A DNA stretch of 64,000 bases from Candidatus Ruthia magnifica str. Cm (Calyptogena magnifica). GTDB lineage: Bacteria > Pseudomonadota > Gammaproteobacteria > PS1 > Pseudothioglobaceae. The stretch lies in NCBI RefSeq assembly GCF_000015105.1, contig NC_008610.1, positions 434,001 through 498,000 on the forward strand, read 5' to 3'. Position numbers and translations under genes: made by a program. Positions 49,063 to 52,599 of this stretch are shown in pieces. Under the pieces are notes generated by a model, which saw only the letters and a list, made by a program, of their open reading frames with translations, searched no databases and was not told the origin of the DNA. How positions within the stretch are numbered: position 1 is the stretch's first letter; each line of letters begins with the position of its first letter.

Positions 49063-49517
49063 ACACATTAATTACCCTGTTAAAACAAAAGTCTCTCACC
49101 ATTGCAGTAGCTGAATCTTGTACAGGTGGCAACTTATCTGCATTACTCACGAGCCAGAGTGGCTCATCATCCTATTTTGACAGAGGGTTTATTACTTATT
49201 CTAACCAAGCTAAAATTGATATGCTGGGTGTTAAGTCTACAACGCTAGACAGGTTTGGTGCAGTTAGTGAGCAAGTTGCATTAGAGATGGTACGTGGTGT
49301 AATTAAAAACTCATCTGCTAATATTGGTGTAGCAATCACAGGCATTGCTGGACCTACTAGCGGTATAAAAAATAAACCTATAGGTATGGTTTGCTTCGGT
49401 TTTTGTACTTTAAAAAGATGTTTTACTAGCATTAAACAGTTTAGTAGTAATCGAGCTGAAGTAGTACATACAAGTGTTGATTTTGTGATTAAAACGTTGG
49501 TTTATGAATTATCATAG
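49059..49517 (+). CDS. pncC: CinA C-terminal-type amidohydrolase (nicotinamide-nucleotide amidase)
   Basis: 152 residues with SLTIAVAESCTGGNLSALLT, SYFDRGFITYSNQAKIDMLGV, the GAVSEQVALEMVRGV block and VGIAITGIAGP-like IGVAITGIAGPTSG. These are the signatures of the stand-alone CinA C-terminal domain, which recycles nicotinamide mononucleotide to nicotinate mononucleotide. The start is GTG at 49059. It overlaps dusA by 14 bases. It complements nadA in NAD supply. Confidence 0.88.
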   Translation: MNTLITLLKQKSLTIAVAESCTGGNLSALLTSQSGSSSYFDRGFITYSNQAKIDMLGVKSTTLDRFGAVSEQVALEMVRGVIKNSSANIGVAITGIAGPTSGIKNKPIGMVCFGFCTLKRCFTSIKQFSSNRAEVVHTSVDFVIKTLVYELS

Positions 49518-50472
49518 TAAATTTTCAGTAGCGCCAATGATGGATTGGACGGATAGACATTGTCGATATTTTTATCGGCTAATATCAAAAAATGTTCAAC
49601 TTTGGACTGAAATGGTAACAGCTAGAGCGATACTTTATGGGAATAAAAACCGTTTGTTGGATTTTAATGTGTGCGAACATCCGCTGGTGTTGCAATTAGG
49701 TGGCAGTGAGCCAAAAGAGATGGCGCAAGCAGCAAAAATAGCGCAAGATTGGGGTTATAATGAGATCAATATTAATGTAGGTTGCCCTTCTAATAGAGTG
49801 CAATCAAGTAACTTTGGAGTGTGTTTGATGCAAACACCGCAGGTTGTGGCGCAATGTGTTGATGCAATGAGACAAATGGTAGATGTGCCAATTACGGTTA
49901 AGTCACGTATTGGTGTGGATAATATGGATAGCTACGATGAATTGGTTAATTTTGTTGCAACAGTTGAAAGTTCTGGTTGTGATAATCTTGTGATTCATGC
50001 AAGAAAAGCTTGGCTAAAAGGTTTGAGTCCTAAGGAAAATCGTAGTGTACCAAAACTTAATTATGAGAGAGTGTATCAGATTAAGCGAGACTTTCCTCAT
50101 CTTGCTATTGGTATAAATGGCGGCATTATGGACATGGAAAGTTCATTACAGCATTTAGAACACGTGGATAGTGTTATGTTGGGCAGGGCAGTGTATCATC
50201 AGCCTTATCTATTAAGAAAAGTTGATGGTTTGATCTACCAGAAAAAATCATCAATATTGAGTCGTGAACAAGTGTTATTAGCATTCATTGAATATATGAA
50301 AGTTCAACATGCTAATTCTGTACTAATTAGATCTATGACACGGCATATTTTTGGTTTGTATCATGGGCAAAAAAATGCTAAAAAATTTAAACGTTTGTTA
50401 AGTGGTAAAATAGTTAAGTTTGAGCACCTGTATGAATGGTTAGAATATACGGATAAAAATAATGACCAATAG
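49504..50472 (+). CDS. dusA: tRNA-dihydrouridine synthase A
   Basis: FMN enzyme reducing uridines in the tRNA D-loop. At 322 residues it has VAPMMDWTDRHCRYFYRL, LQLGGSEPKEMAQAA, NINVGCPSNRVQ, the catalytic Cys in FGVCLM (usually FGACLM), VKSRIGVD, VIHARKAWLKGLSPKENR (a DusA-specific block) and NGGIMD. It overlaps the ftsA start by 11 bases, so ftsA is co-translated with it rather than with ftsQ. Confidence 0.92.
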   Translation: MNYHSKFSVAPMMDWTDRHCRYFYRLISKNVQLWTEMVTARAILYGNKNRLLDFNVCEHPLVLQLGGSEPKEMAQAAKIAQDWGYNEININVGCPSNRVQSSNFGVCLMQTPQVVAQCVDAMRQMVDVPITVKSRIGVDNMDSYDELVNFVATVESSGCDNLVIHARKAWLKGLSPKENRSVPKLNYERVYQIKRDFPHLAIGINGGIMDMESSLQHLEHVDSVMLGRAVYHQPYLLRKVDGLIYQKKSSILSREQVLLAFIEYMKVQHANSVLIRSMTRHIFGLYHGQKNAKKFKRLLSGKIVKFEHLYEWLEYTDKNNDQ

Positions 50473-51682
50473 TGATAATTTTTTTGCAAGTATTGACATA
50501 GGTACAAGCAAGATTGTAGTGTTAATTGCTGATGAGGAAGATGGCAAAATAGAGGTATTTGGCCATGGTATTGGACCATCAGATGGGGTAAAAAATGCGC
50601 TGATTGTTGATATTGATAAAGTGACAAAAGCAATATTAAAGGTGGTGAAAGCTGCTTATCTTAGTTGTAATACTAGAATCCATAATGTATCCACTAATAT
50701 TTGTGATTTGCATCTAAGTACGATTAATCAGGATAGACAAATATCAGTTAGCGGTAAAAAAATCACCAAAGAACATGTTATTGAGGCAATTAAGACGGCA
50801 TCAGCTACACCTATGCCTGCTAATAAGCAAATGCTGAGTGCGAGTATTAATCGCTTTACTATTGACCAAGATACAGCAACAATTGACCAGCCAATTGGAC
50901 TTGAGGCAACTGTTTTGGGTGCTCAAGTGCATGTAAGCATTGTTTCAAACCAAGCCATGAATAGCATCCATCAAGCAGTTGAAAAAAGTGGCTTAGGACT
51001 TAGTGAAGTTGTTTTGAATTCTATAGCCAGTAGCAGAGTTTGTATTACTCAGGATGAGAAAGATAGCGGTGTTTGCTTGCTTGATATGGGGGCAGGTGTG
51101 AGTAATATTTCTGTGTTTATGGGCGGTGGTATTGCTTATAGTCATGTTTTTAAAATGGGCGGCAATCAAATTACCCAAAATATTGCCAATGCCTTTAATA
51201 CCTCATTTAAAGAGGCAGAAAGACTCAAAATTGAACATGGATATGCCCAATTAAAGATAGCACCAGTAGATAAATTAATCCAGTTAAAACAGTTGGATTC
51301 TATTGAAAATCGCTATTTATCATTACACAATTTAGTTGAAGTCATAGAAAATTCTTATTTAGATATCTGCCACTCGATCAAGCAAAATCTAAAAACTAAA
51401 AAGTTAGATAGATCGCTTAAATCAGGATTTGTATTAACAGGTGGCGTGTCTTTAATAGATGGTTGTGAAGGGTTGTTTGTTAATTTTTTTAGAATAAGAA
51501 CTAAGCTGGCTAAAGTTAATGTGAATAAAATCACAGGTAAAGATATGATTGTTTCCAACCCTATTTATACTTGCGCATTAGGTTTATTGATGCATGCTGA
51601 TAATAACGCTTATTTAGAAGTAGTGCAAGCGTACCAACAAACTAACTTTGTGAGTAAAATAAAATCATTATTGGAATTATAA
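50462..51682 (+). CDS. ftsA: Cell division protein FtsA
   Basis: Actin-like protein that tethers FtsZ to the membrane. At 406 residues it has the phosphate-1 motif [16 protein letters not shown], the inserted 1C domain, phosphate-2 [28 protein letters not shown], adenosine motif [13 protein letters not shown] and a C-terminal amphipathic tip ([11 protein letters not shown]) like the membrane-targeting helix. All these parts look intact. Unusually, ftsQ is not upstream (dusA is) and ftsZ is not downstream: lpxC starts five bases after the stop. Confidence 0.94.
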
Positions 51683-51687
51683 ATATT

Positions 51688-52599
51688 GTGATTAAACAAA
51701 GAACCATTAAAAAAGAAGTGAAAGCCAGAGGTGTTGGCATTCATAGTGGCAGTGTTGTAAATATGACTTTAATTCCTGCAAAAGAAGACCATGGTGTGGT
51801 GTTTAGGCGCATGGATGTTGGTGGTAAATTGGTACGTGCGCATAGTGCGTTTGTTAATGAAGTAGTACTTTCTACGGGGCTTGAAAATCAAGGTGTTAAA
51901 GTGTCAACGGTTGAACATTTGATGAGTACATTTTCAGCCCTTGGGATTGATAATGTTTTAGTAGAACTTGATTCGTTTGAGGTGCCAATTATGGACGGCT
52001 CATCTGCTCCTTTTATTTTTCTAGTTCAATCTGCTGGTATTAAAGAACAAGATGCCTATAAAAAGTTTTTTGTCATCAAAGATACTATACGGGTGGAAAA
52101 TGGTGATTCATGGGCACAAGTATCTAAATATGAAGGTTTTAAAGTGTCACTTGAGATTGATTTTGATCATAAAAAAGTTAAAGAAAGTGGGCAGAAGTTG
52201 AGTATTAATTTTTCTAAACAGTGCTATTTAAAAGAAATTTCACGTGCCAGAACTTTTGGTTACATGAAAGATGTAGAAATGATGCAAAGGCAAAATTTGG
52301 CATTAGGCGCCAGTATGGACAATGCAATTGCTTTGAGTGATGATGATGTTTTAAATGAAGATGGAATGCGTTATCAAAATGAATTTGTTAAGCATAAAAT
52401 TTTGGATATTGTTGGTGACTTGTATTTATTAGGTAGCAATCTAATTGGACATTATGAAGGATACAAGACAGGGCATCTACTTAACAATCAACTATTATCA
52501 GTTATCTTAGCAAAACCAGATACATGGTCTATTGAAACATTCGAAGAAGAAGGCTCACCCATTCAATTTTATTCTGAAGATTGGAAAAATTCCTTGTAA
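51688..52599 (+). CDS. lpxC: UDP-3-O-acyl-N-acetylglucosamine deacetylase
   Basis: Zinc enzyme for the committed step of lipid A synthesis. At 303 residues it has GVGIHSG, the first zinc His in [67 protein letters not shown] (second zinc His and Asp, here quoted by parts) and the catalytic His in [11 protein letters not shown]. The start is GTG at 51688, only five bases from ftsA. Confidence 0.95.

Follow-up and report, generated by a model that had tools for sequence, protein, structure and literature searches.

FtsA without FtsZ in the family of Candidatus Ruthia magnifica: a possible organizer of the FtsQLB-FtsWI septal synthase

The ftsA locus

The DNA considered here is a 64,000-nucleotide stretch (the window, positions 434001-498000) of the single contig of 1,160,782 bases (NC_008610.1) of the clam symbiont Candidatus Ruthia magnifica str. 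Cm, and its subject is ftsA, a gene whose product is usually treated as the membrane tether of FtsZ and which has here outlived FtsZ. Open reading frame (ORF) calls place ftsA at window positions 50462..51682 of the forward strand (406 residues). The upstream dusA (49504..50472, forward; 322 residues; named by eye, without a model) shares the 11 bases of its 3' end with the start of ftsA. On the other side lpxC (51688..52599, forward; 303 residues from a GTG start; 47% to E. coli LpxC) begins after the five bases 51683..51687, which occupy the site of ftsZ in other gammaproteobacteria and hold no remnant of it. An earlier reading made from the sequence alone (the sequence-only reading) had described the same overlap, the same five-base spacing and the same lack of an ftsZ remnant, and the ORF calls agree with it.

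The product of the gene is an intact FtsA, as that reading also held: it scores 276.5 bits with the FtsA equivalog model TIGR01174 (cut-off 175.85) and exceeds the cut-offs of both Pfam FtsA and SHS2_FTSA (PF14450, 84.7 bits; PF02491, 44.9 bits), its SHS2 (1C) domain is inserted in the actin-like ATPase, and the best-matching solved structures are FtsA (7q6f, E 1.5e-52). Residues 12-17 (50495..50512, forward), which we take to be the phosphate-1 loop, carry D12, G14 and K17, and residues 208-213 (51083..51100, forward), presumably the phosphate-2 motif, carry D208, G210 and G212; all six are present in 97-100% of 31 family sequences, and a threonine of the outgroups in the second motif is V in 30 of them. 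S298 (51353..51355, forward; subdomain 2B) aligns with the place of R300 (E. coli numbering) on what we assume to be the FtsZ-binding face. The 13 C-terminal residues (51641..51679, forward) constitute, judged by hydrophobic moment and charge, a candidate membrane-targeting amphipathic tip.

The arrangement dusA-ftsA-lpxC is the gene order of the whole family. At 45 of 47 other family loci (from 42 genomes) ftsA and lpxC are separated by 1-20 bases, the remaining two gaps being -11 and 56, and dusA lies directly upstream of ftsA wherever the sequence sufficed, with the exception of one locus in which ~2.3 kb intervene. In 18 stretches from FtsZ-bearing outgroups, ftsA is followed by ftsZ in all 18, preceded by ftsQ in 16 and succeeded by lpxC in 15 (lpxC was not seen in the three stretches that lack the ftsZ-lpxC order).

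Absence of FtsZ across the family

In the genome of Ca. Ruthia magnifica neither PF00091 nor TIGR00065, each of which matches 13 of 14 control genomes, finds any FtsZ or other tubulin, and these searches rule out an ftsZ elsewhere in that genome, which the sequence-only reading had named as the first thing to look for. PF00091 matches none of 37 family genomes, as against 19 of 21 other gammaproteobacteria (the two exceptions are a 2.3-Mb and a 0.4-Mb genome), and TIGR00065 matches none of the 83 genomes of the order, no match reaching E 0.001. (The order consists, in the genome collection used, of one family with 11 genera; its 83 genomes measure 0.7-2.8 Mb and include drafts, and 49 of them are at least 90% complete.) Near-complete genomes of 1.5-2.8 Mb from outside the symbiont genus are among the ftsZ-negative ones; some family members outside the symbiont genus, Thioglobus for one, are, we presume, free-living and cultured. 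FtsZ is absent from the family.

The absence of ftsZ throughout and the common dusA-ftsA-lpxC order place the loss of the gene before the diversification of the family. The loss is not confined to host-restricted lineages, there being no ftsZ in any of the 11 genera. A recent excision of ftsZ in the clam symbionts, which is how the sequence-only reading saw it, is ruled out by the count of 0/83, larger genomes outside the symbiont genus included, and by the family-wide gene order. What some symbionts have lost is ftsA itself, together with ftsW, ftsI, ftsL and ftsQ (four genomes of ~1.0 Mb, discussed below).

That FtsZ is missing from R. magnifica and V. okutanii has been published (PMC4164004, PMC6952346, as available), and the sequence-only reading had mentioned such reports; its absence from free-living SUP05 bacteria and SUP05 symbionts was reported by Shah et al. 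(2019; PMC6509183, as available). Loss of FtsZ in the family is therefore already known. No description of a retained FtsA re-allied with an FtsQ-FtsL-FtsWI core came to light: the literature covered, which mostly excludes subscription papers, holds no nearer work on FtsA or the divisome of this family, and the original genome papers may note FtsA.

Septal and elongation genes

The genome of Ca. Ruthia magnifica has a septal core comprising FtsQ, FtsL, FtsW and FtsI, and it also has MreB, RodA and PBP2. FtsI and FtsW are named by their best E. coli match and their neighbours (the FtsW score of 337.2 falls just below the cut-off, 337.5). FtsL is a 90-residue ORF between rsmH and ftsI (Pfam 38.1 bits against 22.9; below the NCBIfam cut-off), the place at which FtsL is found in all 7 family genomes compared; the orders rsmH-ftsL-ftsI and ftsW-murG are kept in the family. 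FtsQ lies at C1:806196-806939 (309.8 bits with a family alignment). The sequence-only reading was right that ftsQ is absent beside ftsA, but the gene has not been lost; in the relatives read it follows murC-murB-ddl. With the family alignment FtsQ is found in 74 of 83 genomes (the Pfam FtsQ model matches weakly, in 12 of 37). An FtsB-like ORF precedes ispD in 5 of 5 stretches from relatives (by eye; the one that was scanned gives DivIC 27.5 bits against a cut-off of 28.9).

Two SEDS proteins are usual in the family, RodA adjoining dacA and FtsW adjoining murG, as are two class-B transpeptidases, PBP2 adjoining mreB-mreC and FtsI adjoining rsmH; mreB, mreC and PBP2 stand together in 4 of 4 family genomes inspected. 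ZipA (ZipA_C) is matched in 0 of 37 family genomes versus 15 of 21 outgroups, and MinD over its cut-off in 0 of 37 versus 10 of 21.

Exactly two transpeptidase-domain matches are present in 63 of 83 family genomes, free-living ones included (in Ca. Ruthia magnifica at G000:C1:319676-320527 and 845759-846781). Since the two are FtsI and PBP2 in the genomes read, class A penicillin-binding proteins seem to be missing. Their absence from V. okutanii has been published (PMC8406291, as available).

Retention, selection and divergence of FtsA

FtsA exceeds the TIGR01174 cut-off in 73 of the 83 genomes and is present in all 11 genera. It does so in 45 of the 49 genomes that are at least 90% complete (the 45 include a broken copy in genome G009, a copy truncated where a contig ends in G019 and, in G087, a copy whose match contains a stop), the four misses being symbiont genomes of ~1.0 Mb. 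These four, which are complete, and six drafts of 53-86% completeness make up the ten genomes without FtsA over the cut-off; among near-complete genomes, only members of the symbiont genus that measure ~1.0 Mb have lost ftsA.

Within that genus the ratio of nonsynonymous to synonymous substitution rates (dN/dS, by YN00; several distant pairs gave no value and are left out) is 0.104-0.192 for ftsA in four comparisons, which means purifying selection and rules out neutral evolution of the gene, a possibility that the sequence-only reading had wished to see checked. Values are similar for dusA (0.134-0.203, three comparisons) and ftsI (0.145-0.212, two) and lower for lpxC (0.041-0.066, three); ftsW gives 0.079 (one pair). 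With ftsZ gone, FtsA intact and its evolution non-neutral, the question which that reading raised, what FtsA does without FtsZ, is a real one.

Across the family FtsA is strongly diverged. Its mean pairwise distance is 1.33, as against 0.65 in FtsZ-bearing outgroups, and that of LpxC is 0.26 against 0.73 (from 29 sequences of the family and 14 of the outgroups; loci L082, L087, L089 and L091 left out, L092 kept out of the outgroup means). In a smaller set the ratio of family to outgroup divergence is 1.85 for FtsA and 0.31-0.72 for LpxC, FtsI, FtsW, FtsQ, FtsL, MurG, RsmH, MurC and DdlB (ftsQ, ddlB and murC come from three family genomes, some outgroup ftsW and murG ORFs are partial, and genomes G042 and G039 stand outside the means; the mreB row, contaminated by FtsA ORFs, is ignored). 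The excess divergence is specific to FtsA, as would be expected if its most demanding partners had been lost and its fold kept.

Family FtsA proteins are 25-30% identical to E. coli FtsA. In an alignment of 31 family rows (30 genomes) with 16 from FtsZ-bearing bacteria (L089 left out, the divergent L091 and L092 outside the counts), 126 columns are conserved in the outgroups, and 26 of these are retained by at least 90% of the family. D14, G16, K19, D210, G212, G214, K258, G336 and G337 (E. coli numbering) are kept in 97-100% of the 31 and E255 in 21, so that most of the nucleotide-binding residues, whose comparison with FtsZ-bearing relatives the sequence-only reading had proposed, are retained (two that are mostly replaced, T215 and D217, are taken up below). 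By subdomain, the kept columns number 6 of 30 in 1A, 3 of 26 in 1C, 10 of 40 in 2A, 7 of 28 in 2B and 0 of 2 in the tip. That conserved residues were lost from the FtsZ-binding subdomain 2B alone is accordingly rejected.

R300, which we take to belong to the FtsZ-binding face, is present in all 18 FtsA sequences from FtsZ-bearing bacteria, the two divergent ones among them, and in none of the 31 from the family. Since column losses are spread over all subdomains, the loss of R300 supports, without proving, lost binding of FtsZ. With no FtsZ in its genome or order and R300 absent in 31 of 31, the Ca. Ruthia magnifica protein is FtsA by descent and is not an FtsZ tether. (L091 and L092, from the FtsZ-bearing outgroup genomes G039 and G042, have the most divergent FtsA of the FtsZ-bearing set, 37% and 26% to E. 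coli, together with FtsZ at 44-45%; both keep R300.)

The C-terminal tip has a mean hydrophobic moment of 0.42 and a net charge of +1.9 in the family (n=31), and of 0.39 and +1.9 in FtsZ-bearing outgroups (n=15). The measure is a weak one: the C-terminus of LpxC, used as a control, has a moment of 0.33, so that discrimination is poor, and only 6 of 31 tips in the family and 3 of 15 in the outgroups score above 90% of their shuffles. By this measure the basic-hydrophobic tip appears to be kept in character, not in sequence.

Joint decay in reduced symbiont genomes

The symbiont genus is sampled by 12 genomes, and four of them (G001, G004, G005 and G008; ~1.0 Mb, Vesicomyosocius-type) form a group in which the septal genes have decayed together. 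All four have a remnant of ftsA before lpxC (41-78% of the protein alignable, in 4-7 pieces with 3-9 stops) and a remnant of ftsW before murG (13-27 stops in three, three pieces in G005; the search dropped matches below 30% identity, and one G005 ftsW piece is probably the RodA paralogue). Of ftsI 0-16% is alignable in the three genomes of the group covered, and at most a stub of ftsL survives; G001 retains a 63-codon piece of ftsQ containing two stops, and no ftsQ was found in G004, G005 and G008. These genes decayed at loci other than that of ftsA, while murG, rsmH and dnaG beside ftsW and ftsI are open: lpxC and dacA are open in 4 of 4, rsmH and dnaG in 3 of 3 covered, and murG and rodA in 3 of 4 (both are broken in G005). 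The mreB-linked PBP2 is likewise kept in G001, G004 and G008 and broken in G005. The fate of FtsA thus seems to follow that of FtsWI, as though its allegiance had changed from FtsZ to FtsWI-FtsQL. In the other seven genomes of the genus ftsA, ftsW, ftsI and ftsQ are without stops in the search tables.

In the remaining genome, G009, ftsA is split into two pieces and ftsI into four, the ftsQ match contains a stop and dusA is broken; there are two PF01098 ORFs without stops, and lpxC, pepN, ilvB, rsmH and ftsL are open (L004/L072). It is a doubtful second case, either division-gene decay caught midway or sequencing errors.

Three further observations may be recorded. In the four ~1.0-Mb genomes the whole pepN-cinA-dusA-ftsA stretch before lpxC is in remnants (L132, L136, L140, L144-L145). 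The broken rodA, murG and mreB-linked PBP2 of G005 (L119, L142; G005:C1:758864-759800) indicate either a cell wall being abandoned or indel errors of assembly. In G002 (L002) pepN and ilvH are in two pieces each and dusA is interrupted near its end, with ftsA open, through reduction or sequencing errors.

An orphan MinC

Of 37 family genomes 24 have a MinC match (over the Pfam cut-off in 23), with none in Ca. Ruthia magnifica or in the four genomes of genus g2 in the sample; two proteins that were scanned are full-length (TIGR01222, 112-113 bits against a cut-off of 95.25). Of the 21 outgroup genomes, the 10 that have MinC are also the 10 that have MinD. The motif RSGQ, which we take to be the MinD-binding motif, is present in all 4 distinct reference sequences of MinC and in none of 10 from the family. 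In three stretches read (L188:9125-9874, L190:9055-9798 and L191:9077-9814) minC lies downstream of ORFs resembling tolQ-tolR-tolA (by eye) and of a small ORF. Where both MinD and FtsZ are missing, MinC must have some other target, for which the septal core is a candidate. The small ORF between tolA and minC (L191:8724-9116, with like ORFs in L188 and L190) might encode a partner of MinC; in L191 it weakly resembles the Xre/MbcA/ParS C-terminal domain (24.0 bits against a cut-off of 24.5). A co-occurrence of MinC with ParA-like ATPases was dropped as confounded by symbiont reduction.

How FtsA may act without FtsZ

Retention of FtsA with FtsQ, FtsL and FtsWI in the absence of FtsZ is most simply accounted for if FtsA acts directly on FtsQLB-FtsWI. 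On this account, to which we assign a probability of roughly 0.55, FtsA is the membrane-bound organizer and activator of FtsQLB-FtsWI, and septation proceeds without a Z-ring. The ancestor of the family (Thioglobaceae, the SUP05 group) would have lost ftsZ, zipA, SPOR/FtsN and minD also not being found, and would have kept FtsA, FtsQ, FtsL, FtsW, FtsI and probably FtsB as a septal core beside a separate elongation core of MreBCD, RodA and PBP2. FtsA would have remained between dusA and lpxC, keeping most of its nucleotide site and its basic-hydrophobic tip and losing conserved surface residues, presumably its contact with FtsZ among them; actin-like and membrane-bound, it would organize and activate FtsQLB-FtsWI directly from the membrane. 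The absence of FtsZ, the presence of the core, selection on ftsA and joint decay in one group of genomes are observed; binding of nucleotide and membrane, an activation of FtsW like that in E. coli, and filament formation of any kind are inferred.

Several points weigh against this account. Joint decay rests on one group of related genomes and one doubtful case, and in that group dusA, cinA and pepN upstream of ftsA are also missing or in pieces, so that the decay of ftsA may be that of its locus as a whole. The rate at which FtsA evolves exceeds that of the other division proteins, which is odd for a new master scaffold. Within its nucleotide site T215 is replaced by V in 30 of 31 sequences and D217 is kept in 2 of 31. 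SPOR/FtsN is found in 0 of 37 family genomes versus 20 of 21 outgroups. M96 and R153 are both changed in 31 of 31 family sequences, position 96 having shifted from hydrophobic in the outgroups (I, V or M; T once) to polar, charged or proline.

In E. coli, FtsA is proposed to activate FtsW under regulation by FtsN (PMC10591338, as available). With the FtsN tail it forms curved double filaments that prefer negative Gaussian curvature, like those of MreB (PMC7613929, as available), and joint change of M96 and R153 blocks these double filaments (PMC11323482, as available). Failure to find FtsN, together with the changes at M96 and R153, therefore speaks against a double filament of the E. coli type in this family. 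That in a lineage of free-living marine gammaproteobacteria FtsA is itself a cytokinetic filament, of the actin and not the tubulin family, organizing the septal synthase through an interface other than that of E. coli and possibly regulated by an orphan MinC freed from MinD and FtsZ, is accordingly put forward only tentatively, as a conjecture that we would not bet on.

A first alternative is that an unrecognized polymer (a bactofilin, say, or a ParA-type ATPase, a tubulin of extreme divergence or a novel protein) replaced FtsZ and is what FtsA now tethers. The apparently retained character of the tip and the family-conserved residues of the 2B region, unlike those of the outgroups, would fit such a partner, and MinC, kept without FtsZ or MinD, suggests another regulated target. 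However, the method that finds no FtsZ in 83 genomes finds the divergent family FtsA at ~E 1e-80, and no candidate polymer was identified (no search was aimed at bactofilins). We consider this replacement unlikely, and it is the least unlikely of the alternatives.

Next comes division driven by MreB-RodA-PBP2, by an S-layer or by both, with FtsA-QLB-WI as an accessory finishing module; this follows the published proposal for SUP05 (Shah et al. 2019; PMC6509183, as available) and has a parallel in Chlamydia. The linkage of mreB, mreC and PBP2 already described is in keeping with it, as are the MreB-level matches to the FtsA model that are frequent in the family (among the matches listed) and the three Vesicomyosocius-type genomes that have open RodA and PBP2 and lack the septal module. 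Other genomes, free-living ones included, nevertheless keep both machines; septal genes except ftsA show little excess divergence, and ftsI and, in its one pair, ftsW are under purifying selection in the genus. A primary role for MreB or an S-layer is, on this balance, also improbable.

That FtsA was recruited to some other task, such as a part in wall growth alongside MreB or in controlling the neighbouring lpxC, might be read from its strong divergence and from the tight ftsA-lpxC linkage seen at 45 of 47 loci. Yet in the four genomes of ~1.0 Mb lpxC is open, MreB-level matches remain and rodA is open in three, while ftsA, ftsW, ftsI, ftsL and ftsQ die; a task of this kind is very unlikely. 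Least credible of all is that FtsA is a vestige in the course of being lost, for which its loss from 4 and breakage in 1 of the 12 symbiont-genus genomes and its fast evolution at family level might speak; this is disfavoured by its dN/dS within the genus and by its presence in all 11 genera of a family old enough for a mean LpxC distance of 0.26.

If confirmed, direct action of FtsA on the septal synthase would make this family a natural experiment separating the two jobs of FtsA, tether and activator of FtsWI, and a test of whether septation in bacteria can be run by an actin-like protein in the absence of FtsZ. The idea that life in a host was the reason for the loss of ftsZ in clam symbionts is corrected, and the MreB/S-layer proposal for SUP05 is narrowed. 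The division mode of these FtsZ-less cells can be tested in culture.

Relation to known systems

The nearest case is Ca. Thioglobus autotrophicus EF1, of the same family and likewise FtsZ-less (PMC6509183, as available). In that paper known structural proteins are called lacking and MreB and an S-layer are proposed; 'ftsA' occurs 0 times in its main text as available. The present analysis differs in finding FtsA and the FtsQLB-FtsWI core family-wide and their joint decay in one group.

Chlamydia is comparable in that it lacks FtsZ and keeps FtsQ, FtsL, FtsB, FtsW, FtsI and MreB-RodA-PBP2, and different in that FtsA is reported in 0% of 194 genomes, whereas the present family keeps it (PMC10591338, as available). 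In the same survey of obligate intracellular bacteria the percentages of ftsA and ftsZ are identical in all 12 groups (399 genomes). Buchnera of the Lachninae share a strongly reduced symbiont divisome. They keep ftsZ and ftsA after loss of ftsW, ftsI, ftsQ and ftsL (PMC10591338, as available), in contrast to the present family, which keeps FtsA and FtsWI without FtsZ.

The E. coli divisome differs in several components: in the present family FtsZ, ZipA, SPOR/FtsN and MinD are not found, FtsA has diverged, and MinC, where present, is an orphan. What the two have in common is FtsA, FtsQ, FtsL, FtsW and FtsI, together with the gene orders rsmH-ftsL-ftsI and ftsW-murG.

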